Shown: one piece after another, positions 4,706 to 59,235 of the stretch
How positions within the stretch are numbered: position 1 is the stretch's first letter
Layout: the number at the start of each line of letters is the position of its first letter
Origin: Microgenomates group bacterium
GTDB taxonomy: Bacteria > Patescibacteriota > Microgenomatia > UBA1406 > GWC2-37-13
Assembly (NCBI GenBank): GCA_029906985.1
Contig: JARYMT010000002.1
Coordinates: 62,001-126,000 of the forward strand
Direction: 5' to 3'
DNA: 64,000 bases
Notes under the pieces: generated by a model
Databases searched by the model: none
What the model was told of the DNA's origin: nothing
What the model saw: the letters and a program-made list of their open reading frames with translations, nothing else
Made by a program: the position numbers and the translations under genes

Positions 4706-4718
4706 CAAAACTTATTAT

Positions 4719-5943: not shown

Positions 5944-5963
5944 TAAATATTTTTTGCCATAAA

Positions 5964-5984
5964 GTTTGACCGCGGGGGTCGAAC
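5964..5984. repeat. Dispersed GACCCCCGCGGTC repeat, copy 3 (inverted)
   Basis: GTTTGACCGCGGGGGTCGAA, in reverse orientation to copies 1 and 2. It follows the glycosidase-like stop codon by about 20 bp. Confidence 0.78.
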
Positions 5985-6143
5985 TAGTATTAAGAAACTG
6001 CCTCCCACGAACTCACGTTCGGGGTTTCAAGTCAAGTATTATGAATTTAAAAATTAGCCCCTAATTAGCCCCTAATATATTTTAAAAATATAAATCCAAT
6101 TCAATATCACACCCGATTTGCCTATAGGCTTAACATCCCCACT

Positions 6144-6171
6144 CACTACAATTAATTAATTAATTGTAGTG
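6144..6171. repeat. Perfect 28-bp palindrome
   Basis: CACTACAATTAATT is followed immediately by its exact reverse complement, giving a 14-bp arm with no spacer. No T-run follows it, so it is not a typical terminator. It could be a protein-binding site or a bidirectional RNA hairpin between two converging genes. Confidence 0.7.
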
Positions 6172-6450
6172 AAGCTAGATCAAAAAATTTTGAAAAATAG
6201 CAGGGGGTTAATTTTGTTGATTTCAATATTTTGAAACATTGTAATTAACTTTTGTCGTTTTCGCTTGCCGAAAATTTATTTGGCTACTTGACTCCACTTG
6301 AAGAATAAAGGTTTTTATATTTAACATTTAATTTTGGTTGTTGAACCTTTAACTATTGCTGTTTGACAAGCGCAAACGATATTTGTTTAAAGTTCGGCGT
6401 TGAAGGTTGGCTGAAAGTTAAAGCTTTGATTATCTAAAGCCCTTAAAACT

Positions 6451-10483: not shown

Positions 10484-10503
10484 TTGAGATTTTGCATTTT
10501 GAT

Positions 10504-10557
10504 TTTCCATTCGCATATTCGCCTCATTCGCATTCATTCGCAGATTCGTATCATTTT
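10504..10557 (+). repeat. ATTCGCA-rich direct repeat, left copy
   Basis: About 53 bp made of degenerate ATTCGCA units. A copy with about 4 mismatches lies in the same orientation at 37224-37278. The two sit at the outer ends of the block that holds both TA clusters and the AT-rich glycan cluster. It is followed by a CCAATAACCAATAACG tract seen in many spacers of that block. Confidence 0.7.
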
Positions 10558-10690
10558 AACCAAATAACTAATAACCAATAACCAATAACGTATTCTCTCT
10601 ACTTTCTGACTTATTCACTCTTGACATTTTTGAAAAAACTGTTATTCTTAAACTATAAGTAGAAAAAATTACCACCATCAGTCTATATTT

Positions 10691-11269
10691 ATGAAAAACA
10701 TTGTCTTAGAATTATATAAAAAAAAACAAACTGTCTTTACTTTTAAAGAACTGTATTTAATGTTTCCAGATTTAAAAAAACAGTCGCTAAAAGATAAATT
10801 AAGATATGCAGTAAAGACAAAAAAATTGCTTCGACTCCGTAAGGGGGCATATGCTAAAACTAATTTTAATTATTTTGAACTTGCCAATAAAATATATACT
10901 CCATCATATATTAGTCTTGAAACCGTTTTAAAAAAAGAGGGAATTATTTTTCAAGAAATCTCCCAAATAACTCTTGTATCCTATATCACTAGAAAAATTA
11001 AAATTAATGACGTTATTTTAAACTATCGAAAGATAAAAGATCAAGTATTAACTAATAAACAAGGAATAATTGAAATTGACAATTACTTCATTGCCAGCAA
11101 GGAAAGAGCCTTTTTAGACGCTTTATTTTTATTTAAAGACTATCATTTTGATAATTTAATGCCCCTTGATTTTAAAAAAATTTTCCAAATGGTAAAAATT
11201 TATAAAAATAAGGCTTTAGAAAGTAGAGTAAAAAAATATTACAAAATTTATCAAAAAGATTATGCTTGA
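10691..11269 (+). CDS. AbiEi-type antitoxin of a type IV TA pair, module 1
   Basis: 192 residues. The N-terminal 60 residues read as a winged helix (FTFKELYLMFP, then LRYAVKTKKLLRLRKGAYAK). A domain with YTPSYISLETVLKKEGII and FIASKERAFLDALFL follows. The PSYISLE and KERA-LD motifs recur in all four first genes of these pairs in the window and are typical of AbiEi-like proteins. Known AbiEi proteins bind the operon promoter and counter the toxin. The toxin gene overlaps its end by 8 nt. Assigned from motifs and gene order; similarity cannot be scored here. Confidence 0.8.
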   Translation: MKNIVLELYKKKQTVFTFKELYLMFPDLKKQSLKDKLRYAVKTKKLLRLRKGAYAKTNFNYFELANKIYTPSYISLETVLKKEGIIFQEISQITLVSYITRKIKINDVILNYRKIKDQVLTNKQGIIEIDNYFIASKERAFLDALFLFKDYHFDNLMPLDFKKIFQMVKIYKNKALESRVKKYYKIYQKDYA

Positions 11270-11954
11270 AAAACAAAAACATCAAACAATTTTAATCAAA
11301 ATTATTAAAGAAATTTATTCTGATACTGATTTGGCTAAAAACTTAGGTTTTAAAGGAGGAACCGCCCTTTTTTTATTTTACAATCTACCCAGACTTTCTT
11401 TAGATTTGGATTTTAATCTAATCAATCCAGAAAAAAAAGATTTTGTTTTTCAAAAATTAAAAACAATCCTTGAAAAATTTGGACAACTTGAAGAAGCAAC
11501 TGAAAAACGATTTAGTTTATTTTTTTTAATAAATTATGAAAAATATCAAAGAAAAATAAAAATCGAGGTTTCAAAAAGAGCTATTCATCCTAATTATGAA
11601 GTAAAAAATTACCTTGGCATACCTGTTCTTGTGGCTGATAAAAAAGGACTGGCCACAGAAAAATTAGCTGCTTTTTTAACAAGAAAAACTTTTGCTAGTC
11701 GTGATCTTTTTGATTTGTGGTTTATTTTAAAAAATGACTTTCCTTTTGATAAAGAATATCTAAAAAAACAAACTAATTTTGATCTAAAAACCGCCTTAAA
11801 AAAAACCAAAGAAAAACTTAAAAAAATAAAATCAATCCAGCTTCTTCAGGGAATAGGGGAGTTGATTGAAGTAAAACAAAAAGATTGGATAAAAAACAAA
11901 CTAAAATCAGAAGTTGAATTTTATCTTAACCTCTATCTTCAAAATTTAAAATAA
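11262..11954 (+). CDS. AbiEii/AbiGii-type nucleotidyltransferase toxin, module 1
   Basis: 230 residues. FKGGTALFLFYNLPRLSLDLDF holds the nucleotidyltransferase GG(T/S) motif and the metal-binding DxD. Further on, EKLAAFLTRKTFASRDLFDLWFIL matches the conserved Lys/RD-x-(F/Y)-D-L-W motif of this family. Known AbiEii proteins are NTP-dependent toxins; related MenT enzymes add nucleotides to tRNA. It overlaps the antitoxin gene by 8 nt, so the two are co-translated. Spacers on both sides carry the recurring TAACCAAATAACTAATAAC and GATTTTAAC tracts. Confidence 0.87.
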   Translation: MLEKQKHQTILIKIIKEIYSDTDLAKNLGFKGGTALFLFYNLPRLSLDLDFNLINPEKKDFVFQKLKTILEKFGQLEEATEKRFSLFFLINYEKYQRKIKIEVSKRAIHPNYEVKNYLGIPVLVADKKGLATEKLAAFLTRKTFASRDLFDLWFILKNDFPFDKEYLKKQTNFDLKTALKKTKEKLKKIKSIQLLQGIGELIEVKQKDWIKNKLKSEVEFYLNLYLQNLK

Positions 11955-11998
11955 ACCTAAATTAGATCAATTTATTTTTCACTCGTTACACGCCTGCC

Positions 11999-12060
11999 CT
12001 AAAGTGATCTTCGATCTACTTCAGGGTTCCACGTTATACGTTCTAAGTTATACATTTCTG
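11999..12060. repeat. Element shared between the two TA clusters
   Basis: The stretch around GTGATCTTCGATCTACTTC through TTATACATTTCTG is repeated with a few changes at about 35312-35367. The left copy is in the first TA cluster and the right copy in the second. It includes GATC-nnn-GATC half-palindromes and ACGTTATACG units. Confidence 0.6.
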
Positions 12061-12147
12061 CTGATTCCAACCGATTTTAACTAATTTCAACCGATTTCAA
12101 CCTATTTTAACCAAATAACTAATAACGTTTTTTTTGAATTTTACACA

Positions 12148-12909
12148 TTAATATTTATTTATAAAATCAATAAGATAATCAAAGAAGTTGTTTAATTTTT
12201 CTCTTTCAGAAAATGTCACAAAAGGCTTTAAATCTTTTACAAAATCATTCTTATTAAGTTTTTTTAGTTTTTGTTTAATCATATCAAAGTTAAATTTTTC
12301 AATATCATAGTATCTTAATTTTTCCAAAACCAATTTTTCATCAATTTCAATATTTTGATTTAAAAGAAACCAAAGATCATATAGATCTCGACCAACAGTT
12401 CTTGTTAGAAAAGCTCTAATTTTTTCGGCCAATAACTCTTTTTTTTCCGGATGATAAACATATGATCGAAAAATCACTGGAAAATCGGTTTTTATAATCG
12501 ATTTAGTTTTATAAAAGATTTTTTCTCTAAATGAAAAGTCTAAATTAATAAAAACCGGAAAAGATGCCACTTTTAAATTTTCATATGTAAGTAAATATTT
12601 TTTGCCAACGATAGTTTTTCTTTCTTTAAAAGATACAAACTCTTCTTTTTCTAATAATTTAAAGAAACTATTAATAAATTTGTCAAAATTACCCTCATTC
12701 ATTTCAATTGTAAAATCCAAGTCTTCAGAAAATCTAGGTGAATTAAAAAGAAAATGAATGGCAGTGCCTCCTTTAAAAAATATTTTTTGGCTTTTTTCAA
12801 AATCATAAAACCGGCTTAAAAAATATAACTGAATATATTCTCGCAAAATTGCTGTTTCATTAATTTTATGTTTTTTAACCAATGAAAAAATTTGATCTTT
12901 ATTAATCAT
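12148..12909 (-). CDS. AbiEii/AbiGii-type nucleotidyltransferase toxin, module 2
   Basis: 253 residues with FFKGGTAIHFLFNSPRFSEDLDF and, further on, LLAEKIRAFLTRTVGRDLYDLWFLL, the same two blocks as module 1 but otherwise clearly different. The antitoxin gene precedes it on the minus strand with a 4-nt overlap (12906-12909). The module is oriented opposite to module 1 and separated from it by about 190 bp of repeat-filled spacer. Expected to be a cytoplasmic toxin held in check by the neighbouring AbiEi-like protein. Confidence 0.87.
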   Translation of the reverse strand: MINKDQIFSLVKKHKINETAILREYIQLYFLSRFYDFEKSQKIFFKGGTAIHFLFNSPRFSEDLDFTIEMNEGNFDKFINSFFKLLEKEEFVSFKERKTIVGKKYLLTYENLKVASFPVFINLDFSFREKIFYKTKSIIKTDFPVIFRSYVYHPEKKELLAEKIRAFLTRTVGRDLYDLWFLLNQNIEIDEKLVLEKLRYYDIEKFNFDMIKQKLKKLNKNDFVKDLKPFVTFSEREKLNNFFDYLIDFINKY

Positions 12910-13514
12910 ATTATTTTTGTTTTTTTAGATAGTTCTTTGATAATTTTTAAAAATTGTCTTGTCTTTGGATAATTTTCTAAATATTCCTTAAAAATTGTTT
13001 TTTTTAATTTTGATAGATCTAATTCCTCAAAATTTATTTTTTTTATTCCTTTTGAAACAAAATACAATTGATCAAGTAAAGCTTTTTCTAAATTAGCAAT
13101 TAAATAATTATTTATTAGCTCATATCCGAAAAAAAGATTTTTTGATAGTCGAGAATAAGAAAAAATTTTTTCACCATATTTTTTGATTCGGGTTTTTTTT
13201 ATTGTTGCTGATGTTATCTCATATGGAAATTGTGAAATTACTCCCCAAAAGTTTAATGCTGTTTCAAATGAAATATATGAAGGAACCAATAAAAAATTTG
13301 CCAATTCAAAATCAGAAATATTAGCTTTAGCTAAAATATATTTATCTCTTTCTATTTTAATTAATATTTTTTCTTTTATTAATCGACTTAAATATTTAAA
13401 ATATGTGCTTTCCTTTTTTGATTCAATAATATCTTTTAAAGTTTTATTATTAAAAAGATATAGACCGCTTTCATAGATTTTTTTTACAACTAAAGCATAA
13501 TTTAAAGTTTCCAT
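12906..13514 (-). CDS. AbiEi-type antitoxin, module 2
   Basis: 202 residues. An N-terminal winged helix (YFKYLSRLIKEKILIKIERDKYIL) is followed by FELANFLLVPSYISFETALNFWGVI and YLIANLEKALLDQLYF, the family's PSYIS-E and EKA-LD motifs. It is followed by its toxin gene with a 4-nt ATGA-type overlap. Regulation is probably autogenous, as in studied AbiE operons, but no clear operator is evident in the upstream TTTACACTATATATAG region. Confidence 0.8.
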   Translation of the reverse strand: METLNYALVVKKIYESGLYLFNNKTLKDIIESKKESTYFKYLSRLIKEKILIKIERDKYILAKANISDFELANFLLVPSYISFETALNFWGVISQFPYEITSATIKKTRIKKYGEKIFSYSRLSKNLFFGYELINNYLIANLEKALLDQLYFVSKGIKKINFEELDLSKLKKTIFKEYLENYPKTRQFLKIIKELSKKTKII

Positions 13515-13552
13515 ATACTTTACACTATATATAGTTTAAAGAACTTTGTCAA

Positions 13553-13749
13553 GAAGATTTCAACTAATTTCAACCGATTTCAACTGATTTCAACTAATTT
13601 CAACACTCTCAACCCTCCCAACTCTCTAAACTTTCTAAACTCTTACAACTCTTACAACTCTCTCAACTCTCTAACACTCTCAACCCTCTCAACCCTCTCA
13701 ACACTCTAAACGCTCTAAACGCTCTCAACTCTCTCAACCCTCTCAACGT
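13553..13749. repeat. Tandem 9-10 bp arrays ATTTCAACYG and CTCTCAACC
   Basis: About 200 bp made almost wholly of degenerate short units: first ATTTCAACTA / ATTTCAACCG decamers, then CTCTCAACC / CTCTAAACG nonamers. Shorter arrays of the same units occur at 12060-12120, 14520-14580, 29900-29985, 33825-33870, 35220-35250 and 35367-35410. It ends about 10 bp before the nuclease promoter. Confidence 0.75.
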
Positions 13750-13759
13750 TTAATTAATA

Positions 13760-13765
13760 TATAAT
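13760..13765 (+). promoter_or_regulatory. -10 hexamer 6 nt before the nuclease ATG
   Basis: TATAAT followed by TAATTA and then the ATG at 13772, a leaderless arrangement seen at many other genes here. Confidence 0.6.
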
Positions 13766-13771
13766 TAATTA

Positions 13772-14407
13772 ATGCAAAAACTCTTTAACTTTATTCTAAT
13801 CTTAATCACTTTTATATCCTTATCCTTAAACTTTTATTTTTATAAAACTTTAACCGAGCAAAATCGAGTGGTTGATGTGGTTGATGGCGACACTTTTCAA
13901 TTAAAATCCGGAAAAAGAGTTAGGCTTTTGGGAGTTGATGCGCCTGAATATAATCGTTGCGGTGGAGCCGAGGCAAAAAAATTCCTTGAATCAAAAGTTA
14001 TGGGAAAAATCGTTACAATAAAGGAAGAGCAACAGGAAACTTTTGGCCGAAGTTTAGCTCTGGTTTATTTAAATAAAAATCTTATTAATGAAATGGTTTT
14101 AAAATCAGGCTGGGGTAGACCCGATTACCGAAAAAACTCTCAAAGAGATAAATTAACTTCAGCCTATCATTATGCCAAAAACAATCAATTAGGAATCTTT
14201 AGTTCTCTCTGCCGCGACGATAACCCGTTAACTAATTGTATTATCAAAGGCAACATTGACAAAAACACTTATCAAAAATTTTATCATCTTCCCAATTGTA
14301 AACATTACAATGAAATCGTCATTGAAAAAGATATTGGTGAGCGATATTTTTGCTCAGAGGAAGAAGCCCAAAAAGCCGGCTTCAAAAAAGCCTCAGGATG
14401 TCCATGA
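13772..14407 (+). CDS. Secreted thermonuclease-like (SNc) nuclease with C-terminal Cys domain
   Basis: 211 residues. The N terminus is a signal peptide or anchor (KLFNFILILITFISLSLNFYF). The SNase domain (residues about 27-150) shows VVDVVDGDTFQLKSGKRVRL, LGVDAPEYNRC and EQQETFGRSLALVY, keeping the catalytic Asp, Arg and Glu positions of staphylococcal nuclease. The C-terminal 50 residues (CIIKGNI, YHLPNCKHYNEIVI, FCSEEEAQKAGFKKASGC) match the small Cys/His domain often found after such nucleases, related to the Ada metal-binding fold. It would degrade nucleic acids outside the cell, perhaps for nucleotide scavenging. Start chosen from TATAAT 6 nt upstream. Confidence 0.88.
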   Translation: MQKLFNFILILITFISLSLNFYFYKTLTEQNRVVDVVDGDTFQLKSGKRVRLLGVDAPEYNRCGGAEAKKFLESKVMGKIVTIKEEQQETFGRSLALVYLNKNLINEMVLKSGWGRPDYRKNSQRDKLTSAYHYAKNNQLGIFSSLCRDDNPLTNCIIKGNIDKNTYQKFYHLPNCKHYNEIVIEKDIGERYFCSEEEAQKAGFKKASGCP

Positions 14408-14657
14408 TAATGATTTGAATAATTATACTTAAATTTGTTTTAACTTTATAAACTTTATGAACTCTTTGTTCTTCTCCTCCTATTACTTTTATTACTCCTA
14501 TTAGTCTTATTCGACTTATTTAACCTATTTCAACTGGTTTCAACTGATTTCAACTGATTTTAACCAATATCTAATCTCAAACATCGTCGACGTTATTTGT
14601 TTTCATTTATTCGTCCTTAATTTTATTTTTATGTTTTTTTTATGCTAAAATATCCTC

Positions 14658-29382: not shown

Positions 29383-29570
29383 AAGATATTAAATTTTACT
29401 ATATATTAGAACTTTTATGTTTGGCAAAAATCCTCACTCCTCACCTCGGAGATGCAATATGCCTGACAAAACTTAAAAAATACGCTTTCGCTAGATTCTT
29501 CGCTCCTTCGCCTTTCGGCTCAGTCGCTCAGAATGACAAAGGGAATGTATCATCCTGATACCTCTTCTTG

Positions 29571-29791
29571 TCATCCTGAACGTTATTTTCTATCATCATG
29601 AACATTATTTTTTCTCATCCTGAACAATCCCTTCCTGTCATCCTTAACATTCTTTTCTGCCATCATAAACATTCTTTTCTACCATCACGAACATTCCTTT
29701 CTCTCATCCTGAACATTTCTTTCTGTCACCACGAACATTCCTTTCTCTCATCCTGAACATTCCTTTCTGTCATCCTGAACATTCCTTTCTG
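29571..29791 (+). repeat. Degenerate tandem array of a 22-bp unit, about 10 copies
   Basis: The unit is about TCATCCTGAACATTCCTTTC plus two bases, repeated about ten times with decreasing divergence toward the right, where the last two units are identical. The array runs straight into the hairpin element, whose first bases (TCATCCTGAACGAAG) resemble the unit, so the array looks expanded from the end of that element. A 2-3 unit version lies at 33663-33705. Confidence 0.8.
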
Positions 29792-29895
29792 TCATCCTGA
29801 ACGAAGTGAAGGATCTAGCGACCGAAGGAAGCGTAAATTATTAACGCTTATGTATACGCTTCGCTAGATTCTTCGCTAACGCTCAGAATGACAAA
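29790..29895. repeat. Long hairpin element TGTCATCCTGAACGAAG...AGAATGACA, copy A
   Basis: The left half (TGTCATCCTGAAC, GGATCTAGCG) is roughly the reverse complement of the right half (CGCTAGATTCTTCGCT, CTCAGAATGACA), so the about 105-bp element folds into a long imperfect hairpin. Similar repeats are widespread in bacterial genomes. Other full copies are at 31856-31980, 33526-33633 and 33706-33813; right-half copies are at 29491-29540, 32831-32869 and 35172-35213. Confidence 0.8.
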
Positions 29896-29991
29896 AAACC
29901 GGTTTTAGCTGATTTTAACTAATTTCAACTGATTTCAACTAATTTCAATTCTCTCAACGCTTTAAACACTCTAAACATTTTAAACTTATAT

Positions 29992-30046
29992 TTTTTTTAC
30001 ACTCGCCGCCACGGCTCGCTCGATGATAGGGGAGGCGGCATTAAAA
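29992..30046 (+). repeat. 54-bp direct repeat flanking AbiE module 3, left copy
   Basis: Contains TTTTTTACACTCGCCGCC and ACGGCTCGCTCGATGATAGG, then ends in ATTAAAA. The right copy, in the same orientation, is at 31762-31816. The two bracket exactly one AbiEi/AbiEii pair. Confidence 0.75.
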
Positions 30047-30060
30047 GTTAAATTTTAATT

Positions 30061-31155
30061 TTATATCAAGTGATTGATTTCGCCTTTTTCTAAATTCTTC
30101 CTTAATCTTGTATCTATAACTTTTGTTTCATAATTCTTAATCGGATTAAGGCAGTAAAATTCTTTTATTTTTTTAATATAAAAATTAAGATTATCCTGGT
30201 TTTTTTCAAAAGACTTTTTAAAGCCAGCTAGCGCCGACTCGGCTATTTTTATACTAAAGATTATTTCCCTTTGTTTATTTAATTTAAAAAAAAATCTATA
30301 AACAATAATATCCTCTCCACTAGGATTAACAATTTTATCGTATCTTACATATTCCAAGTTTATCATTTTTGGAAAATAAATCTCTAAAAAATCAAGCTTA
30401 TTAACATTTTCAGGATCAAGTAAAAAACTCTCCAATCGTCGTTTATAAAGATTTAGTTTGTTTTTTTCCACATAAAATTTATCTTTTACTCTTTTTGTTA
30501 AATCAGTAATATTATTATCCTCAATAAACTGCCAATCAAAAACTGCATTGTTAGACAAAAGCCAGACAATATCGTATAAGTCTCTTGCCATTGTCTGCTT
30601 CCTATCAATATAAGCCAATAACTTTTGTATTAAAAGTTGATTAAGGCTTACAGTAACAATATTGGATAAAAAACCATATCTATCAAAACTAATTATTTCT
30701 CGACTTAAACCTTTCCAATTAGATTCAAAATCAAGCTTTATAACCAATTTTTTCTCTTGATCTGAATCAAGTTTTAATTCATAAAGGATTTTAGAAAATC
30801 TAAATTCAAAATAAACTCTTTTTAAAGTCTTGTTTGTATAAAGAGACACCGATATATTTTCTTTTTGTAAATAAAATTCTATCTCTTTTAAAAGATCATT
30901 AATTTTTGAGTAATTTAAAGGAGAAACAAATTCAAAGTCTAAATCTTCAGAAAATCTATCCAAACCTCTTAAAAGTCTAAGTGATGTCCCGCCTATAAAA
31001 AATAAATTTGCCGATTGTTTTTTTTGATAAATTCTATTCAAGATCAAAGACTGTAAATACTCGCGCAAAATATTTTCCTTTCTGTTAAGAGGAATACCAT
31101 ATTTTCTGGCAAATTCTAAAACCTGATTGAACCGATCAACTAAACTGCTTCGCAT
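30061..31155 (-). CDS. AbiEii/AbiGii-type nucleotidyltransferase toxin, module 3 (long form)
   Basis: 364 residues from ATG 31155; the frame is open a few codons further to 31173. FIGGTSLRLLRGLDRFSEDLDF holds the GGT and D-x-D motifs (the Lys before GG is Ile here), and RKQTMARDLYDIVWLLSNN is the second block. About 110 extra C-terminal residues, containing EIYFPKMINLEYVRYD and a strand-rich domain, distinguish it from modules 1, 2 and 4. It overlaps the antitoxin gene slightly. The pair is bracketed by 54-bp direct repeats, suggesting the cassette moved as a unit. Confidence 0.84.
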   Translation of the reverse strand: MRSSLVDRFNQVLEFARKYGIPLNRKENILREYLQSLILNRIYQKKQSANLFFIGGTSLRLLRGLDRFSEDLDFEFVSPLNYSKINDLLKEIEFYLQKENISVSLYTNKTLKRVYFEFRFSKILYELKLDSDQEKKLVIKLDFESNWKGLSREIISFDRYGFLSNIVTVSLNQLLIQKLLAYIDRKQTMARDLYDIVWLLSNNAVFDWQFIEDNNITDLTKRVKDKFYVEKNKLNLYKRRLESFLLDPENVNKLDFLEIYFPKMINLEYVRYDKIVNPSGEDIIVYRFFFKLNKQREIIFSIKIAESALAGFKKSFEKNQDNLNFYIKKIKEFYCLNPIKNYETKVIDTRLRKNLEKGEINHLI

Positions 31156-31712
31156 ACTAATTTTTGCACCCATACCGGGTAATTTTTAGAAAACTCATTT
31201 AGTTTTGATTTATCAAATTTTTGCCAGTCAATTCTTAAATCATCTATTCTTTTAAACTTATAAATATATAAATAATCCAATATTGCTTTTTCTTTATAAG
31301 CCATTTGAACAAATTCATCACCAATTTTTATCTTTTCAAAACCAAAATAAAGATTAACTGATATTTTTCGATAAATAAATCTACCAACAATTGTCTTTAT
31401 TTCTTTTTTAGTAATGGTGGTTATAGAGGTGGTAACAAAAGGAATATCTGGAATTATGCCATAATAAAAAAGAGCTGATTCAAGACTAATATAAGAAGGT
31501 TGATAAAGAATGTTAGCAACAAAATAAAGGTTTAAACCTTCTTTTTTAATAAGATAAAAACCTCTTTTTAAGCGAAAAATTTTTCCTTTTTTAATCCAAC
31601 GATAAATCTGTGTTTTTAATGTGTTTATTTTTTCATCAGGATAAAACTTTAATAAATCTTCAAAAGAAAAAAACGAATTTTGAATTTTATATCTAAAATC
31701 TTCAAGTTTCAT
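31140..31712 (-). CDS. AbiEi-type antitoxin, module 3
   Basis: 190 residues. The winged-helix part reads TQIYRWIKKGKIFRLKRGFYL, then ANILYQPSYISLESALFYYGIIP and FVQMAYKEKAILDYLYIYKF, with the PSYISLE and KEKA-LD motifs seen in the other three modules. The toxin gene follows with a short overlap. Upstream (minus strand) is a short AT-rich region, then the right copy of the flanking direct repeat. Confidence 0.8.
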   Translation of the reverse strand: MKLEDFRYKIQNSFFSFEDLLKFYPDEKINTLKTQIYRWIKKGKIFRLKRGFYLIKKEGLNLYFVANILYQPSYISLESALFYYGIIPDIPFVTTSITTITKKEIKTIVGRFIYRKISVNLYFGFEKIKIGDEFVQMAYKEKAILDYLYIYKFKRIDDLRIDWQKFDKSKLNEFSKNYPVWVQKLVCEAV

Positions 31713-31761
31713 TTACAAAAAGTATACAAATTTGTCTATTATTTGTCAACTATAATTAAAT

Positions 31762-31816
31762 CTTTTTTACACTCGCCGCCACGGCTCGCTCAATGATAGG
31801 CGAGGTAGTATTAAAA
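31762..31816 (+). repeat. 54-bp direct repeat flanking AbiE module 3, right copy
   Basis: Same orientation as the left copy at 29992-30046 with a handful of mismatches (CTCAATGATAGG against CTCGATGATAGG; GTAGTATTAAAA against GCGGCATTAAAA). Confidence 0.75.
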
Positions 31817-31855
31817 TGCGCATTTCCACCTCAAAGGTGCAATATGCCTCTTCTC

Positions 31856-31980
31856 TGTCATCCTGAACGAAGTGAAGGATCTAGCGACCAAAGGAAGCGT
31901 AAATCATCATAGCGTAAAAATACGTTAACACTAGATTCTTCGCTCCTTCGCCTTTCGGCTCAGTCGCTCAGAATGACAAA
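31856..31980. repeat. Long hairpin element, copy B
   Basis: Starts TGTCATCCTGAACGAAG and ends CGCTCAGAATGACA. It differs from the other full copies by the inserted CCTTCGCCTTTCGGCTCAG in the right half, which the half copy at 29491-29540 shares. Confidence 0.78.
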
Positions 31981-32003
31981 AATACTATGTATAACGTGGA
32001 GCC

Positions 32004-32082
32004 CCGCGGGTAAAACCCGCGGTACCACTTGATACAGGGTTTCGCGGGGCGAAACCCTGAACCGTCCCGACATAACGTCGGG
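32004..32082. repeat. Three adjacent perfect GC-rich stem-loops
   Basis: Stem 1 CCGCGGGT/ACCCGCGG (32004-32022, loop AAA). Stem 2 CAGGGTTTCGC/GCGAAACCCTG (32035-32059, loop GGG, 11 bp). Stem 3 CCCGAC/GTCGGG (32066-32082), itself inside an outer GAACC/GGTTC pair (32059-32090). No T-run follows. The GC content contrasts sharply with the surroundings. Confidence 0.75.
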
Positions 32083-32187
32083 TCTGGTTCATGGGTAAAA
32101 CGTGTAACGTATAACATGTATAGGATTTTAAATTATGAAGTTTTTTATACGTTACACGTTATAAGTTACACGTTACACTTTTTGACA

Positions 32188-32427
32188 TTAAATGCTAGAT
32201 TTTTTTCTAAGTAATTCTTCAAATTCAATAAATGTAAGTTCTGCCTGTTTTAAAATACTTAAGAATGTTCCTTTGGCTAACTCTTTATGATTAGGGACAA
32301 TTACTGTTAAAATTTTGCCGTGTCTTATGCCTTTTAATTTTATGTGACTTCCTTTTTGAGATACGATTGAAAAATTTATTTTATTTAATATTTTTAAAAT
32401 AACTTTTGCGCTATAAGCCTTAGGCAT
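32188..32427 (-). CDS. hicA: HicA-family mRNA interferase toxin, HicBA 1
   Basis: 79 residues. IVSQKGSHIKLKG holds the catalytic His in the usual G-S-H context, and VPNHKELAKGTFLSILKQAEL is the family's C-terminal helix block. HicA is a small dsRBD-fold RNase that cuts mRNA. The HicB gene precedes it on the minus strand with an 8-nt overlap, so this is the HicB-first order. The length is typical. Confidence 0.88.
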   Translation of the reverse strand: MPKAYSAKVILKILNKINFSIVSQKGSHIKLKGIRHGKILTVIVPNHKELAKGTFLSILKQAELTFIEFEELLRKKSSI

Positions 32428-32665
32428 AAGAAGTTTGGTTGTTAATAGAAATTTTTTCTAAAGATATATTGGAGTAAGATGATTTTATTGGAGATGAAAA
32501 ATCTTCAAAATAAAGCTCTAAAGCTTCCTTTAAGTTTTTTAAAGCTTCTTTTTTAGTTTTTCCTTGACTTGCAACCTCAACTTCAAGACATTTAGCCACA
32601 AAAAATTTATCCTCTTTCCATACTAAAGCTGATAGTTGGTTATAAACATTTTTTATCTTTTTCAT
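32420..32665 (-). CDS. hicB: HicB-family antitoxin, HicBA 1
   Basis: 81 residues. The partial RNase-H-like fold shows SALVWKEDKFFVAKCLEVEVASQGKTKKEALKNLKEALELYFED, the classic HicB pattern. No DNA-binding tail domain is present, so it is the short form. It lies just upstream of hicA with an overlapping start. It would neutralise the toxin by direct binding. Confidence 0.85.
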   Translation of the reverse strand: MKKIKNVYNQLSALVWKEDKFFVAKCLEVEVASQGKTKKEALKNLKEALELYFEDFSSPIKSSYSNISLEKISINNQTSYA

Positions 32666-32745
32666 ATGATTTTATTATATCATAACAAAATTTTAAAAAA
32701 CCACAAAATAAAATATCTCCACCTCTATTCCCACCTCTACCTCAA

Positions 32746-32776
32746 CCCCACCTCAAAGGCGCAATATCCTTGACAC
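32746..32776 (+). repeat. GCAATATGC element, copy 3
   Basis: CCACCTCAAAGGCGCAATAT followed by CCTTGACACC. One of seven copies (29438, 31824, 32746, 33494, 34470, 36944, 37512), each lying between two TA modules or at a cluster edge. The variable part before GCAATAT forms a small stem, for example CACCT-CGA-AGGTG at 34477-34489. Confidence 0.75.
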
Positions 32777-32923
32777 CTTGGTAAATAAAAAAAATTTATT
32801 TCTTTAATTTCATCAAAAAATTTTAAAAACACGCTATTGCTAGATTCTTCGCTAACGCTCAGAATGACAGCTAGATAAATTAGATCGATTAGAAATTTTA
32901 AATTTTAGATATTTTTATAATCA

Positions 32924-33154
32924 TTAAACTTTCTTTAACAACTCAAAATATTCTTCGTTAGAAATTTTTGCGGTTCGAAGATTGTTTTTGATAATAAAGG
33001 TAGGAATAGATTTATATTTTGGAATAACAATTGGCCTAATAAAACCATCCTTCATAAAAATCATATGATCACCTTTAGTTCTAATATGCTTCCAACCAAC
33101 TTTTTCAAAAATTTTAACCAATTTTTTATAATCAATTGGTTTTATCGAAGGCAT
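32924..33154 (-). CDS. hicA: HicA-family toxin, HicBA 2
   Basis: 76 residues. VGWKHIRTKGDHMIFMKDG carries the catalytic His in G-D-H, and the end reads NNLRTAKISNEEYFELLKKV. It is the YcfA/HicA subtype and differs from HicBA 1. A copy of its last 27-28 codons, almost unchanged, survives at 37302-37389. The HicB gene lies 5 nt upstream on the minus strand. Confidence 0.85.
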   Translation of the reverse strand: MPSIKPIDYKKLVKIFEKVGWKHIRTKGDHMIFMKDGFIRPIVIPKYKSIPTFIIKNNLRTAKISNEEYFELLKKV

Positions 33155-33159
33155 TTATT

Positions 33160-33438
33160 TTAAGAAAAATTAAAAATAAATGGTTCAATAATTATTTTTG
33201 GATAAGAAGAGTTCTTTTTTATATCAAATCCAAACTCTTTTAAATATTCATCTAATTTATTTTTCTTTTTTAACTCCTCAAACACTAATTCTAAAGCTTG
33301 TTTAACATTTTTTCTTGCTTCATCTTCAGTTTTTCCACAGGAAGAAATATCGAATTCTGGAATATAAGCAACAAAAGGAGCATCTTTAGACGTTTTTTCG
33401 TAAATAATTTTTATGGTAATTGGAAATTGAATTGACAT
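33160..33438 (-). CDS. hicB: HicB-family antitoxin, HicBA 2
   Basis: 92 residues from ATG 33438 (MSIQFPITIKI); the frame is open to 33465, but the extra 9 residues lack family similarity. APFVAYIPEFDISSCGKTEDEARKNVKQALELVFEELKK is the HicB fold pattern, with an acidic C-terminal extension ending in a proline-rich FIFNFS tail. It should antagonise the HicA encoded directly downstream. Confidence 0.85.
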   Translation of the reverse strand: MSIQFPITIKIIYEKTSKDAPFVAYIPEFDISSCGKTEDEARKNVKQALELVFEELKKKNKLDEYLKEFGFDIKKNSSYPKIIIEPFIFNFS

Positions 33439-33525
33439 ATATAAAATTATAACATTAAAATTCAAAAAAGATAAATTTAAACAAGAGCAATATCAACTCC
33501 TCGGCGGTGCAATATGCCTCTTCTC

Positions 33526-33633
33526 TGTCATCCTGAACGAAGTGAAGGATCTAGCGACCGAAGGGAGCGTAAATTATTGAATTATATGATATACGCTAAC
33601 GCTAGATTCTTCGCTAACGCTCAGAATGACAAA
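33526..33633. repeat. Long hairpin element, copy C
   Basis: 108 bp, identical as far as I can read to copy D at 33706-33813, 180 bp away. The central part contains TTGAATTATATGATATACGC. Confidence 0.85.
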
Positions 33634-33705
33634 GGGAATGCATCATCCTGACGCCTCTTCTTGTCATCTTAAACATTCCTTTCTGTCATCCTGAACATTC
33701 CTTTC

Positions 33706-33813
33706 TGTCATCCTGAACGAAGTGAAGGATCTAGCGACCGAAGGGAGCGTAAATTATTGAATTATATGATATACGCTAACGCTAGATTCTTCGCTAACGC
33801 TCAGAATGACAAA
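33706..33813. repeat. Long hairpin element, copy D
   Basis: Identical to copy C. The unit CATTCCTTTCTGTCATCCTG precedes it, so copies C and D may be one tandem duplication with the 22-bp units in between. Confidence 0.85.
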
Positions 33814-33962
33814 AAACCGGTTTTAACGGTTTTAACTAATTTTAACTGATTTTAACCGATTTTAACCAAATAACTAATAACTAATAACAAATAACGTATT
33901 TTTTAACTTTATGATACCTTATTATTATTGCTAAAAATTCAACTAATGTTTATAATTTAAAT

Positions 33963-34199
33963 ATGTCAAATACTATAACATTATCACAATCAGCTTACAA
34001 ACAACTTTTAGAACGCTTAATTAATGTTGAAAAAAAATTGTCTGATCTTTTGGAAAAAATTGAGCGCGAACCTGTTTATGGTACTGATGAGTGGTGGGAT
34101 TGGTCAGATAAAAAAGCAGTTGCTGATATTAAAAAAGGCAACTATTTGGTTTTTGATTCTCCTAAAAAATTAAAAAAACATCTTGATTCTTTAAAATGA
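33963..34199 (+). CDS. Antitoxin of a RelE-type pair
   Basis: 78 residues: MSNTITLSQSAYKQLLERL, then a short coiled coil (VEKKLSDLLEKIE) and a Trp-rich toxin-binding tail (YGTDEWWDWSDKKA) ending FDSPKKLKKHLDSLK. The layout (DNA-binding-like start, extended tail) suits a RelB/Phd-like antitoxin. TATAAT sits exactly 6 nt before the ATG. The toxin gene starts 1 nt after its stop. I do not recognise a named antitoxin family with certainty. Confidence 0.75.
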   Translation: MSNTITLSQSAYKQLLERLINVEKKLSDLLEKIEREPVYGTDEWWDWSDKKAVADIKKGNYLVFDSPKKLKKHLDSLK

Positions 34200-34200
34200 T

Positions 34201-34458
34201 ATGAAAATAATCTTAACTGCAAGAGCAGAGAAGACTTATAAAAAGCTTCCTTTAAATATAAAATTAAAAACTGATAAAAAACTACAACTTTTATTAACTA
34301 ATATCAAACATCCGTCACTTCGGGTTAAAAAAATGACTGGCATTAATCGTTTTGAAGCAAGAATAGACTATCATTACCGTTTAACTTTTATTATGAAAAA
34401 CAATAATATCTATATTCTTACAATTGGTCCTCATGATGAAGGCTTAGGAAAATTATAA
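34201..34458 (+). CDS. RelE/ParE-superfamily toxin
   Basis: 85 residues. LTARAEKTYKKLPLNIKLKTDKKL, then PSLRVKKMTGINRFEARIDYHYRLTFIM and ILTIGPHDEGL are the family blocks, including the Arg-rich strand and the final H-D-E. Proteins of this kind cut mRNA on the ribosome or poison gyrase. It directly follows its antitoxin gene. A GCAATATGC element begins about 10 bp after its stop. Confidence 0.87.
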   Translation: MKIILTARAEKTYKKLPLNIKLKTDKKLQLLLTNIKHPSLRVKKMTGINRFEARIDYHYRLTFIMKNNNIYILTIGPHDEGLGKL

Positions 34459-34560
34459 ATTTTTTTCTCCACTCCTCACCTCGAAGGTGCAATATGCTTG
34501 ACCAAACTCTAAAGTTTAAAAAATTACTGCGAAGCCGGCTTGAAATATTTGACTTATTCT

Positions 34561-34595
34561 AAAAAACCTCAGGGGGCTATTAGCACAGCCTGAGG
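34561..34595 (-). terminator. Rho-independent terminator after the DUF2283 gene
   Basis: On the minus strand CCTCAGG and CCTGAGG form a 7-bp stem (34567-34573 with 34589-34595), followed by TTTTTTAG. It lies 31 bp beyond the DUF2283 stop codon. Confidence 0.75.
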
Positions 34596-34625
34596 CGAAT
34601 ATAAATAAATTATAGCAAAAAAAAC

Positions 34626-34871
34626 TTAATGAAGAACTTTTGAAGCATTTAAAACCGTTATACCAATTACGTCGTTATTTTTTTTCCGAACAATTATATT
34701 ATCAGAATAAACTTCAGAATTATCAGCTTTTTTAATTTCACCAAATGAAATATACAAAACATCAGCTTCCTTATCATAATTTAACACTAAATTACTTTTG
34801 TTTTGCTTTTTCATTAAAAAGAAAATTTTAGGAATACTATTTTGGAGATTATTAATCAAGATTTTTTCCAT
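34626..34871 (-). CDS. DUF2283 protein, probable antitoxin partner
   Basis: 81 residues from 34871, or 62 from an internal ATG at 34814. VLNYDKEADVLYISFGEIKKADNSEVYSDNIIVRKKNNDVIGITVLNASK is the DUF2283 pattern. Such genes commonly sit beside small toxin-like genes. Here the gene upstream (34856-35137) is toxin-like but broken by a stop, and its end overlaps this gene's start. It may therefore be an orphan antitoxin. A terminator follows. Confidence 0.78.
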   Translation of the reverse strand: MEKILINNLQNSIPKIFFLMKKQNKSNLVLNYDKEADVLYISFGEIKKADNSEVYSDNIIVRKKNNDVIGITVLNASKVLH

Positions 34872-35137
34872 AATATTTTCTTTTTTAAATAATAATTAAT
34901 ATTTTTTGTTTTAAAAACAGTGATTATAAATCCATCAAGAAAATACTTATTTCTACTTTTAACGGCAATTAACTCTTCTTTTTATCCTTGAAATATATAT
35001 TCTGGATCTTCTACAACTTTTTCAACAAAAAAGATGTCTTCAACTATTTCGGGATGATTTGTCAAAATATGATTTAATCTTTCTGAAGTAAGTCTAATGT
35101 TAATATTATTTTTACTTTTAAAAACCTTAATCGTCAT
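34856..35137 (-). pseudogene. Small toxin-like gene interrupted by in-frame TAA
   Basis: ATG 35137 opens a frame reading RLTSERLNHILTNHPEIVED and EKVVEDPEYIFQG, then TAA at 34982-34984. The same frame continues with KEELIAVKSR, FLDGFIITVFKTK and KKKILWKK to a TGA at 34856, inside the start of the DUF2283 gene. The His-Pro-Glu segment, the DPEYI block, the FIIT strand and the final ILWK are typical of small toxin-like proteins encoded next to DUF2283 genes (DUF4258/PBECR-like; the exact family is uncertain). One nonsense change appears to have inactivated it. Confidence 0.65.
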
Positions 35138-35415
35138 ACGTCATAATAATTTTATCAAAAAACCTCAAAAAACACGCTATCGCTAGATTCTTCGCTAACG
35201 CTCAGAATGACAAAAAACCGGTTTTAGCTGATTTTAACTGATTTTAACCAAATAACTAATAACCAAATGTTTTTTTTACACGTTTCACGTTATACGTTCC
35301 ACGTTACACATTAATGTGATCTTTGATCTACTTTAGGGTTCTACGTTCCCGTTATACATTTCTGATAATTTCAACTAATTTTAACTGATTTTAACTGGTT
35401 TTAACTATTTTGGTT
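35138..35415. other. Repeat spacer before AbiE module 4
   Basis: 278 bp. It holds a right-half hairpin element (35172-35213), GATTTTAAC units, an ACGTTATACG tract and the element shared with the first TA cluster (35312-35367). No gene is visible. Confidence 0.7.
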
Positions 35416-36243
35416 TTAAAGATACTTTTCGATCAATTGAAGATAATTTTTAGAAAAAGTTTTCACATATTCTTGATTCTCTATAAAATTATTTAAATCA
35501 TAAGCTAATTTTTTAGGGGTGTTAACTTTTTTTATTCTTTCTTTTAAAACTTTCTTTAACTCCTCTTCATTTTTTATTCCTGTTCTTTTTTTTAACATTT
35601 TATAATTTGGTTTTGTCCCTTTTTGTAAAAACCAAAACAAATCAAAAAAATCCCTTCCTTTTATATCAATTTCATTTTCTTTACCCTTAAACCATATTCT
35701 ATATAAAACTGCGTTTATTTTTCCCGCCATCAAAGTTGGAAGATCATAAGTTTTGACAATAAAATTAAACCCATATTTTGAGATTGGAATTAAATCAAAA
35801 TTAGAATAAGGCTCTAAACCCAAAGTTGACTCAATTTTTACATAAAGCTTATCTGATTCATTTTTATCAGCTATCCCTAAATTTTTTAAAATAGGAAATT
35901 TAAGATAAAGACGTATATTTGATTGAATTTTGGTTTCCAATTTAGAAAAATATTTTGTTTCAATCTCTTTTTTTAGAAAGCTTTCTAAATCTATAAGTAA
36001 ATTTTTTCCATATATTTTTTCTTCATAATCAAAATCTAAATCTTCAGATAACCTTGGCAATCCATAACAAACTCTAAGACAAGAACCTCCTTTAAAGACT
36101 AACTCCTTATATTTTTTATCGTTGTATAAAATATTCAAAACTAAATACTGAATATATTCTTTTAGATAATTTCTCAACAGCGCTTGATTTCTAATTTCTT
36201 GTTTTTTTTGATAAATAAACTCTTTTAAAATTTTTTCAAGCAT
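35416..36243 (-). CDS. AbiEii/AbiGii-type nucleotidyltransferase toxin, module 4
   Basis: 275 residues. LVFKGGSCLRVCYGLPRLSEDLDFDYEEK holds the GGS and D-x-D motifs, and IDIKGRDFFDLFWFLQKGTKPN is the second block. It starts 8 nt inside the end of the antitoxin gene. It is the longest in the GGS subgroup here, with additional residues between the two motifs. Expected to be a cytoplasmic nucleotidyltransferase toxin. Confidence 0.86.
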   Translation of the reverse strand: MLEKILKEFIYQKKQEIRNQALLRNYLKEYIQYLVLNILYNDKKYKELVFKGGSCLRVCYGLPRLSEDLDFDYEEKIYGKNLLIDLESFLKKEIETKYFSKLETKIQSNIRLYLKFPILKNLGIADKNESDKLYVKIESTLGLEPYSNFDLIPISKYGFNFIVKTYDLPTLMAGKINAVLYRIWFKGKENEIDIKGRDFFDLFWFLQKGTKPNYKMLKKRTGIKNEEELKKVLKERIKKVNTPKKLAYDLNNFIENQEYVKTFSKNYLQLIEKYL

Positions 36244-36871
36244 AGTAAATTTTTTTAATTAAATTTATAACTTCAATAATTTTTTTGTTTTTTGAAATTT
36301 TTCCGTATCTTTTCAATTTATTAAACTCTTTTTTCGATAAATTTTCCCAGTTAATTCTTAGCTCTTCAATAATTTTTTCATTAATTAATTTTTCTCTAAA
36401 AAATCGTAAATACAAAAAATCAAAAACCGCTTTTTCTTTTTTGGCAATTAAGATATCAGCATCCTTAAATTTTTTAGTTTCATAATCTAAAAAAAGACTA
36501 GGGGAGATAGAATAATAAGTAAAAGTGCCAAAATTATTTTTAAAAGTTTTTGTTTTTTTAGTTGTCACACTCGTTATTCCAAAAACTGCTTCAGTTAAAA
36601 GATTATATTTACTTAAGACATATTCGCAAGAAAGATAAGACGGTTGATAGATCTTGTTAGCTAAATATTCTAAATATGCTTCCTTATTATCCTGTCTATC
36701 AAAAGTCGATCTTAAAATATATCGGCCTTTTTTTATCCGTATTAAATCACCTTTTTTAATCCAATATTTGATATTAGCGTTTAAAGTATTATCATTTTTT
36801 TCCAGCTGAGATAATGACTCCTTAGTGATTATTAAAAAATTATTTAATTTGTTTAATTCTAATTTTTTCAT
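36236..36871 (-). CDS. AbiEi-type antitoxin, module 4
   Basis: 211 residues from ATG 36871 (MKKLELNKLNNFLI); the open frame extends upstream to 36979, but that part overlaps a GCAATATGC element and is not family-like. ANIKYWIKKGDLIRIKKGRYIL is the winged helix, ANKIYQPSYLSCEYVLSKYNLL and ILIAKKEKAVFDFLYLRFF are the family blocks. An 8-nt overlap with the toxin gene follows. Confidence 0.8.
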   Translation of the reverse strand: MKKLELNKLNNFLIITKESLSQLEKNDNTLNANIKYWIKKGDLIRIKKGRYILRSTFDRQDNKEAYLEYLANKIYQPSYLSCEYVLSKYNLLTEAVFGITSVTTKKTKTFKNNFGTFTYYSISPSLFLDYETKKFKDADILIAKKEKAVFDFLYLRFFREKLINEKIIEELRINWENLSKKEFNKLKRYGKISKNKKIIEVINLIKKIYYA

Positions 36872-37223
36872 ATGTTTCTGATTTTGTATAAAAATTATAC
36901 CAAATAAGAAACAAAAGTCAATAGCAAAAATTTTGCTTAAAAGCGCATCCTCGCCTCGGCGGTGCAATATGCTTGACACCTCGGGAGATAAAAAAATTTA
37001 TTTCTTTAATTTCATCAAAAAACTTAAAAAAACACGTTGACGCTTCAAATATAACGTAAAACGTGTAATATATAACTTGTTAAAAAATTTCCTTTTTAAT
37101 TTCAACAGATTTTAACCGGTTTTTAATAATTTATACGGACAGGGTATTGCCTTGTCCCTACTTATCTTATTTCCAAATAACTAATAACTAATAACCAATA
37201 ACGTATTTTTTTTATTTTTGAAT

Positions 37224-37278
37224 TTTTCATTCGCATATTCGCCTCATTCGCATTTATTCGTAGATTTGTATCATTTTT
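37224..37278 (+). repeat. ATTCGCA-rich direct repeat, right copy
   Basis: Same orientation as 10504-10557 with about 4 differences in 53 bases. It lies near the right edge of the TA/glycan block. Confidence 0.7.
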
Positions 37279-37301
37279 AATGATAGATGTTTTTATAGTC
37301 A

Positions 37302-37389
37302 TTAAACTTTCTTTAACAACTCAAAATATTCTTCGTTAGAAATTTTTGCTGTCCGAAGATTGTTTTTAATAATAAAAGCGGGGACTTGA
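37302..37389 (-). pseudogene. Truncated HicA remnant
   Basis: On the minus strand this encodes PAFIIKNNLRTAKISNEEYF, then ELLKKV and TAA, almost the same as the last 28 residues of the HicA at 32924-33154. The first two thirds of the gene are missing; the copy breaks off shortly before a GTCATCCTGCG-type hairpin element. The flanks on the left also match the flanks of the intact copy. Confidence 0.85.
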
Positions 37390-37417
37390 CATATTTTATA
37401 AGTTAACATTTAAATTG

Positions 37418-37488
37418 TCATCCTGCGTAAGCAGGGATACACTTTTAAAGGTGATTGTTCTGGATTCCCGCCTTCGCGGGAGTGACAA
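37418..37488. repeat. Hairpin element with TTGTCAT...GTGACAA ends
   Basis: Starts TTGTCATCCTGCGTAAGCAG and ends CCCGCCTTCGCGGGAGTGAC. The right half contains a tight CCCGC-cttc-GCGGG hairpin. It resembles the common GTCATTCCCGCG-type bacterial repeat and lies where the HicA remnant is broken. Confidence 0.65.
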
Positions 37489-37585
37489 AAAAAGAGGGGA
37501 ACAATGAGCAAACCCACCCCACTCGGCGGTGCAATATGCCTAGCCCTTTGGGAGATTTTAAGCTAATTTTGGAAATTTTTCGATC

Positions 37586-57923: not shown

Positions 57924-59051
57924 CTAATTTTGATGTTTTCCACAAGTGAATGAATAGCCGCAATAAGGGCACCTAGCTTTCCATGTCGCTGGCGAATCTT
58001 TCTTTTCTCCCTGAATTTTTTGATGGCAGCTGGGGCATTCGTAATCTTCATAACGATCAGTTTCTTCCTTTTTTTGAAAAAATTTACCGGATAATAACCG
58101 GTAAAGACTTGAATCAGCCGTTATCACACTTCGCCAATGATTATAGAAAACTCCCAGACTTTCTTCTATCTCCTGCTGCGAAACTGTACCGCCGCCGCAT
58201 CCGGCGCTTAAATCAGTGATTTTTTGTCCGGTTGATAATTGATGGTAATAAACCAAACTTAAATAACCTCTCCTGACTGCTTCAGCAATCAAATTCTCTT
58301 CTAAAGCCAGCTGCCTTGCCAAATTTTCAATTGTTTTATCGTAAGATTCCAACCAAGTAGTTTGTCCTGTCTGAAGGGCATAATTGATTTCCCGCCATAA
58401 ATCCTGAAGATAAAAAACCCTTTCGCCGTTATCGTGAACCAGGATATTTGGCAGGCTGTCCAAATAATCTAGAAAATCTTCCATTGATAAATTGGTTAAT
58501 AGAGGAGAGGAGAGAAAATAATAAATTTTTTCTCTTTCATTTTTTATTTCTCGATAACCATTGCCAAAAATTAATTTTAAAAATTCTTCATTGGTAAAAG
58601 CAATTGGCAGGCCGACAACTTTTTTTCCTAAATTGACATAAATTATCAATTGATTGAAAGGGTAATCCACCTCGGTAAATTCATTTTCGTTTCCTCCTTC
58701 GAAAGCCCCTTTTCCTTTTGGTGAACACCATAAAACTACCCTTCCGGGATGATTAACTAAAAAGTTTTCAATTGCCAAAAAACTAGTTCGCGCCACTCCT
58801 TCCCGTTCGCGCTCATCAAATAAATCAACCGCCAGCTCTTCCTTTTCATCGCTGTCAACAAAAAGCCTCTGATTTTTAATTCGATAAAAATAAGGGGCGG
58901 AGATTACCCATTTGGAAAGCATTTCGCTGGCAAAACTTGAAAGCGACCGGCGGAATAATCTTTCTCTTTCCCCAATTGACAAACCAGCCAATTGAGCGGC
59001 TTCTTCAGCCGACCGAAATCCAAATTTTAAAAATTCCCGACAAACAGTCAT
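57924..59051 (-). CDS. Uncharacterised zinc-ribbon protein under a cobalamin riboswitch
   Basis: 375 residues from ATG 59051, which has a Shine-Dalgarno-like AGGGA 5 nt upstream, rare in this window. The frame is open to 59075, but that part is riboswitch expression platform. The first 120 residues are charged and helical (KFGFRSAEEAAQLAGLS, GERERLFRRS). A middle part has HPGRVVLWCSPKG and LIIYVNLGKKVVGLPIAF. A Gly-rich AGCGGGT segment lies near residue 305, and the C terminus is a zinc ribbon (YECPSCHQ and ARCPYCGYSFTC). No membrane segment or known catalytic motif is visible. I do not recognise the family. B12 control suggests a role in cobalamin uptake, salvage or a B12-dependent step. Confidence 0.8.
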   Translation of the reverse strand: MTVCREFLKFGFRSAEEAAQLAGLSIGERERLFRRSLSSFASEMLSKWVISAPYFYRIKNQRLFVDSDEKEELAVDLFDEREREGVARTSFLAIENFLVNHPGRVVLWCSPKGKGAFEGGNENEFTEVDYPFNQLIIYVNLGKKVVGLPIAFTNEEFLKLIFGNGYREIKNEREKIYYFLSSPLLTNLSMEDFLDYLDSLPNILVHDNGERVFYLQDLWREINYALQTGQTTWLESYDKTIENLARQLALEENLIAEAVRRGYLSLVYYHQLSTGQKITDLSAGCGGGTVSQQEIEESLGVFYNHWRSVITADSSLYRLLSGKFFQKKEETDRYEDYECPSCHQKIQGEKKDSPATWKARCPYCGYSFTCGKHQN

Positions 59052-59077
59052 ATTTTTCCCTGCGCGGGGAGCCATTT

Positions 59078-59235
59078 TCCCTGATCGGTCTTCGGGCTTA
59101 TTCCAAAAATCTTAATCAATTTGTTAAGATTTTTGGAAATTACCGCTGCGGCACAGCCCCGGATTTTCACCGGCGTTCCCAAAAATTAAAAAGCCTTCCC
59201 ATCGTCTAAAAAAAGACAGTGGCTTAATCAGGTTG
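59078..59235 (-). promoter_or_regulatory. Cobalamin riboswitch, compact form
   Basis: Read on the minus strand, the core is GGGAACGCCGGTGAAAATCC, then GGGGCTGTGCCGCAGCGGTAA, ending in the B12-box-like AAGCCCGAAGACCGATC. P1 is CCTGAT (59227-59232) with ATCAGG (59080-59085). The part that usually carries P7-P10 is one simple hairpin (CCAAAAATCTTAA...TTAAGATTTTTGG, about 59104-59137). The P2 region contains AAGCCACTG...TGGGAAGGC. A GGGA, UCCC, GGGA series follows (59078-59081, 59067-59070, 59057-59060), the last being the Shine-Dalgarno of the next gene. This fits translation control by alternative pairing. Confidence 0.87.

Follow-up and report, generated by a model that had tools for sequence, protein, structure and literature searches.

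How do toxin-antitoxin (TA) modules come to be stacked side by side in an ultra-small bacterial genome, and is the short element that recurs between them a recombination signal? The question is raised by a stretch of 64,000 nucleotides (the window; positions 62,001 to 126,000 of contig JARYMT010000002.1, here C9) from a Microgenomates group bacterium, whose patescibacterial genome (G000) comprises 953 kb on 16 contigs at a completeness of 98%. At 29.4-37.6 kb of the window, within a polysaccharide biosynthesis region and flanked by rfbD and a glycosyltransferase gene, lies an island of TA modules with seven copies of an element of about 46 bp, designated E. An earlier note, made from the letters of the window, had likened the island to a cassette array and taken E, for which it knew of no described system, for a recombination signal that gathers TA genes. 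This proposal is partly supported: the architecture is cassette-like, but E is not an unknown dedicated signal. Judged from its sequence and its neighbours in related genomes, E is a palindrome resembling repetitive extragenic palindromes (REPs) and their hairpin-forming doublets (REPINs), and is linked to REP-associated tyrosine transposases (RAYTs), a known class.

Copies of the element and their distribution

The seven array copies of E, with the core GGTGCAATATGC, are all on the plus strand and lie at module borders or island edges, as the earlier note had described. The motif GCAATATGC starts at 29454, 31839, 32761, 33509, 34489, 36964 and 37531, with one copy reading GCAATATCC. The island is ordered rfbD, E1, AbiE, E2, HicBA, E3, HicBA, E4, RelB/ParE, E5, DUF2283 plus AbiE, E6, HicA remnant, E7, glycosyltransferase. 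The copies thus mark borders and edges, but not invariably those of complete TA modules: there is no E at the DUF2283/AbiE border, and the final module of the cluster is a truncated HicA.

A sequence model of E, built from the same seven copies that it scores, gave them 32-40 bits with expectation values of 4e-9 to 9e-12 (filters off), and nothing over 4.3 bits in the rest of the window. E1 (29435..29480, 35.5 bits with model R1) forms the left edge of the array, upstream of rfbD, and its right side is unlike the full element. E2 (31820..31865, 32.1 bits), with AbiE on its left and HicBA 1 on its right, is directly followed by a repeat resembling a miniature inverted-repeat transposable element (MITE), and so is E4 (33490..33535, 32.7 bits) at the border between HicBA 2 and RelB/ParE. 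E3 (32742..32787, 33.8 bits) separates HicBA 1 from HicBA 2 and retains the right arm TTGACACCTTGG, E5 (34470..34515, 37.1 bits) starts 12 bp past the ParE/RelE stop codon, and E6 (36945..36990, 40.4 bits), between AbiE and the HicA remnant, retains the right arm TTGACACCTCGGGAGAT. E7 (37512..37557, 34.0 bits) forms the right edge, where the right arm CTAGCCCTTTGGGAGAT passes into chromosomal sequence. The trailing CTTGACACC, thought to follow the element often, is present in full only after E3 and E6.

Outside the array, the genome holds one close core copy at C8:8340 and three weaker variants (GCAATAAAT) at C8:15.8, 16.5 and 19.9 kb, all within 12 kb on C8 and adjoining ordinary or unknown, non-TA genes. 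Each of these four copies (L011:8331, 15797 and 16473; L092:1888) was observed 16-55 bp past the stop codon of a same-strand gene, three of the four genes being without a Pfam match. Alignment of the seven array copies with the eighth on C8 yields the common part CACCTCNNMGGTGCAATATGC, to the right of which the sequences fall into a few classes. With 7 of 11 copies within 8.1 kb (P = 1e-12, or about 1e-8 to 1e-9 if non-coding DNA is assumed to make up 10-15% and the value is scaled to it), E is strongly clustered rather than evenly spread through intergenic regions, and chance clustering was rejected on positions, model scores and P value. The variable small stem noted previously is mostly decayed in the array copies (folding z-scores of 0.15 to -3.2); these copies are half elements, namely degraded 3' halves, and look like relics.

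Several other identities were discarded. Apart from three tRNAs, Rfam searches of the window returned only a cobalamin riboswitch (59066-59224, RF00174, 50.8 bits), directly upstream of a 383-residue open reading frame (ORF) on the minus strand (57924-59075). A chromosomal dif site is unlikely, because most genomes of the family lack E. An exact scan of viral contigs found no E, and a phage-borne element was rejected. The full-length pattern, searched across 84,980 GTDB species, matched only SKW25 and SKW283, which we take to be identical with the assemblies G033 and G078. Early exact core matches in G028 and G008 proved to be due to chance, and a gene-plus-E pair apparently common to C8 of G000 and C57 of G078 was dismissed, the proteins sharing only a 23-residue match (expectation value 3e-5).

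A REP-like palindrome linked to RAYT genes

Longer forms of E were found by model search of the genomes of the family and class. In the family of the window the full element is CACCTCGGAGGTG-N12-CACCTCGG (G033, G078, G077, G021), and in genus g57, from another family of the class, it is a longer, symmetric CCCGAGGTG-N12-CACCTCGGAGGTG-N12-CACCTCGGGA. The intact form (G224, G096) folds as a single long imperfect hairpin (-23 kcal/mol, z -7.7). On contig C22 of G224, intact copies at 5554-5590 and 6445 enclose a Y1_Tnp gene of 223 residues (5728-6399), the arrangement of a REPtron, and in a sister genus (G033) a Y1 gene has one E on one side, at a distance of about 50 bp. Many RAYT genes of the family are flanked on both sides by the same palindrome class, including the only one of the island genome (ACACACCTACGAGGTGTGT); a copy of this palindrome at 4716-4738 of the window is identical to both flanks of that gene (L116:1250-1270, 2041-2061). 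In the RAYT protein tree the gene of G033 groups with those of G018, G028 and G091, and palindromes related to E are present in G018 and G091.

Because intact or related forms flank RAYT genes in relatives, E is assigned on these grounds to the RAYT-linked, REP/REPIN-like palindromes. The GTAG tag (GT[AG]G) is missing from the 5' foot of the hairpin in the E flanks that were read, and E is therefore filed as a REP-like variant and not as a canonical GTAG REP.

Spacers and possible reassortment across the element

A longer spacer, rich in repeats, has E as its left edge and runs in fixed order from the right arm of E through an AT-rich stretch and a MITE-like repeat (TCATCCTGAACG...) to (AACTGATTTT)n and CCAAATAACTAATAAC. 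The MITE-like repeat (TGTCATCCTGAACG...CTCAGAATGACA) is present on the plus strand as two tandem copies with 98% identity (33519..33813), with further copies at 29783-29897 and 31849-31980; in this genome it occurs in the TA array only, and matches to it were found in 41 of 72 genomes of the family. The spacer tail, (AACTGATTTT)n plus CCAAATAACTAATAAC, stands at 33815..33915 (plus strand), with copies at 10553, 12072, 14519, 29900, 35219 and 37173. Strong spacer-repeat matches in the genome are confined to C9:72.5-99.2 kb, where they coincide with TA modules or adjoin them. In the spacer of the AbiE module, 22-bp tandem repeats (TTTCTGTCATCCTGAACATTCC, 29542-29825) were also observed, apparently grown from the end of a MITE.

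The right flanks of E2 and E4 (31829-31944 versus 33499-33615, 85% identity) and those of E3 and E6 align starting with the first base past the core, with no comparable anchored match among the left flanks. To the left of E2 and E6 stand two old AbiE paralogues with about 60% DNA identity, and to the right of E6 a younger copy (84-92%) of the HicA 2 region. If the two spacer classes are termed alpha and beta, all four pairings are present (AbiE with alpha, AbiE with beta, HicB with alpha, HicB with beta), and reassortment of modules and spacers across E is therefore suggested, from four borders only. The right arm of E7, CTAGCCCTTTGGGAGAT, is diverged and native; the left side of E1 joined to the right side of E7 would rebuild one nearly full element. 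Homology thus starts at E and runs rightward, in keeping with the cassette reading of the earlier note.

Palindromes and TA modules in relatives

Complete TA modules bounded on both sides by related palindromes were also encountered in at least three other genera. G091 has two examples: palindromes in direct repeat enclose HicBA (L235:10034, 10925), with a RAYT gene on the same contig, and MNT-HepT (L234:1774, 2625), which a second MNT-HepT module adjoins. A Phd-RelE module stands between REPs in G028, although its RelE matches ParE_toxin weakly; in G096, E copies at L265:2641 (weak) and 4714 enclose an MNT-HepT module; and a Phd/ParE module of G018 ends 3 bp before a REP. The G091 contig also shows, at L234:1774-4384, three successive MNT/HEPN gene pairs, with a near-identical REP unit of about 70 bp between the first two.

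TA density was compared between DNA near (within 500 bp) and far from (beyond 2 kb) 61 palindrome sites in relatives. Five TA modules were counted in 52.9 kb of near DNA versus 2-4 in 280 kb of far DNA, about 7-13 times denser near the sites (P 0.002-0.007), an enrichment that rests mostly on G091 and is not significant without it (P 0.12-0.18). E is not specific to TA genes, since ordinary genes adjoin its four other copies in its own genome and the majority of those in relatives; the idea of a signal for gathering TA genes specifically is not supported on this point. Three contigs of G033 (L082:1-1700, L083:1-1600, L085:1-900) end at most 1.7 kb from an E copy, inside genes that by eye resemble type III restriction-modification and AAA-ATPase genes, which may reflect strain variation at E.

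Origin of the island and alternatives

We consider it likely, at odds of roughly two to one, that palindromes of the REP/REPIN kind spread by RAYT came to bound TA modules, and that duplication and shuffling mediated by repeats enlarged the array. E would originally have been spread as an intact palindrome by RAYT (TnpA_REP) transposases of the Y1 HUH type, and units of spacer, TA module and E would then have been duplicated and shuffled, most likely by homologous recombination between direct repeats. RAYT may have set this off by cutting once-intact REPs at their foot; it has been reported that TnpA_REP cuts REP DNA and joins it again, and E. coli strains have been noted in which the REPtron locus is replaced by a TA operon (PMC6006769). 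The TA modules would subsequently have been kept by selection against antitoxin loss, because losing them is harmful. The best explanation of E is then a cassette boundary by history and not a currently active, dedicated recombination site.

A number of observations weigh against this origin. No E-type RAYT was detected in the island genome, where the one RAYT gene that was detected carries another REP, and none of the Y1 genes detected lies in G078 or G021, which carry E. To the missing GTAG tag is added the GCC stretch that precedes most local RAYT REPs, though not E. The reassortment is drawn from just four borders, and the enrichment near palindromes depends on G091. REPs normally disperse, yet 7 of the 11 E copies are local, and local duplication is therefore needed.

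The best surviving alternative, although unlikely, assigns RAYT the whole process: the Y1 enzyme would cut immediately 3' of the hairpin and itself excise and insert, in the form of single-stranded circles, the TA modules that have a REP on each side. Similarity does stop a few nucleotides 3' of the hairpin in the array and in relatives, the single orientation of E is what strand-specific Y1 activity predicts, cleavage and rejoining of REP DNA have been reported for TnpA_REP, and one G091 contig carries RAYT, REPs and a REP-bounded HicBA. On the other side, no excision or insertion event was observed, the array hairpins are mostly lost and no cognate RAYT was detected in the genome. That patescibacterial RAYT and REPs form a cassette system which gathers, stacks and reshuffles TA modules between REP sites, analogous to integrons but chemically unrelated, is also an improbable proposition.

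A tyrosine recombinase acting site-specifically at E, integron-like or in the manner of Xer and pdif modules, with TA modules moving as circles that insert at E, is slightly less probable again. It would account for the single orientation of E, the modules between sites, the homology switch at E, the left-by-right reassortment and the nearly full element restored from E1 and E7. The inner repeat of E consists of inverted arms around 12 nt, readable as 11-6-11, and a Xer gene with an intact catalytic motif lies 19 kb away. The pdif modules of Acinetobacter are known to carry TA genes. However, the genome has only two tyrosine recombinases, both Xer-like, and no integron integrase (TIGR02249 at 130.9 bits, far under the cut-off of 265); no E contains a GTTRRRY core; most relatives lack E though all should have Xer; the intact element adjoins RAYT genes and not recombinase genes; and the array elements are degenerate. 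The second Xer-like protein (L017:1147-2016; C8:153.6 kb) apparently lacks the catalytic residues, with LRNTF for LRHTF and ERF at the expected tyrosine.

It is very improbable that E has no connection with mobility and acts downstream of genes in regulation or termination: all four C8 copies and several in relatives (10-70 bp past a stop codon) are placed accordingly, but array copies lie upstream of four antitoxin genes and rfbD and keep to no uniform position, no T-run follows the hairpin, which is not conserved in the array, and intact copies flank RAYT genes.

Comparison with known systems

Like REP/REPIN sequences associated with RAYT (PMC2817692, PMC3116915, PMC6006769), E is an intergenic imperfect palindrome with several copies per genome, whose intact form adopts a hairpin and is found to either side of a Y1 HUH gene; unlike them, it lacks the GTAG tag, has few copies, is concentrated at TA borders in its own genome and is reduced to half elements in the array.

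The island shares with the pdif (dif) modules of Acinetobacter the placement of TA modules between short repeated sites with inverted arms, but all seven E sites are on the plus strand, whereas pdif sites alternate in orientation (C/D, D/C), and E appears not to be Xer-like in sequence, is tied to RAYT genes in relatives and gives no evidence of Xer use. With chromosomal integrons and superintegrons it has in common mostly single modules, often TA genes, between which stands a short site, imperfectly palindromic and of one orientation; it differs in the lack of IntI, of the attC core GTTRRRY or RYYYAAC in a direct reading of E1-E7, and of attI, in TA genes on either strand and in long, repeat-rich spacers. 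Mosaic repeats of the MITE type or the bacterial interspersed mosaic element (BIME) type likewise have composite spacers with several repeat families in fixed order, but in the island genome the composite is hardly found away from TA loci.

TA genes of the island

Searches for AbiEii and HicA placed four of the genome's five AbiE toxins, and both of its HicA toxins, in the window. The first AbiE module of the island (30061..31712, minus strand) comprises an AbiEii toxin (30061-31173, PF08843, 5e-20) and an AbiEi-like antitoxin (31140-31712, AbiEi_4, 8e-5, slightly under its cut-off). Two HicBA modules follow on the minus strand: HicA 1 (32188-32427, PF07927, 9e-15) with a HicB-like protein (32420-32665, DUF7387, 1e-9) at 32188..32665, and HicA 2 (32924-33154, PF07927, 2e-10) with a HicB-like protein (33160-33465, UPF0150, 1e-4, under its cut-off) at 32924..33465. 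On the plus strand (33963..34458), a putative antitoxin without family match (33963-34199) precedes a ParE/RelE toxin (34201-34458, PF05016, 7e-5, over the cut-off).

The remaining genes are on the minus strand. A DUF2283 protein (34626-34871, PF10049, 5e-12) and a 51-residue ORF (34982-35137) occupy 34626..35137, and the second AbiE module (35416..36871) consists of AbiEii (35416-36243, PF08843, 7e-23) and an AbiEi antitoxin (NF047376, 9e-12, under its cut-off; ATG start likely near 36871). The truncated HicA remnant (37273..37411) is a duplicate of 32895-33032 (92% over 104 nt, 84% over 141 nt). Elsewhere in the window (10490-14627), two more AbiE modules (10691-11954, plus strand; 12148-13514, minus strand) have spacer-tail repeats as in the array, without E.

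Implications

Hosts are believed to retain RAYT transposases, though for reasons that have not been established. A search of the available literature found no paper joining REP-associated tyrosine transposases with Patescibacteria. The RAYT-linked, REP-like elements that bound TA modules here are a variant of the known REP/RAYT class. That RAYT-type REPs and TA modules are repeatedly linked in ultra-small genomes suggests a possible role for REPs in bounding small modules for duplication, loss and shuffling, and offers a testable route by which TA islands may form without integrons or plasmids.

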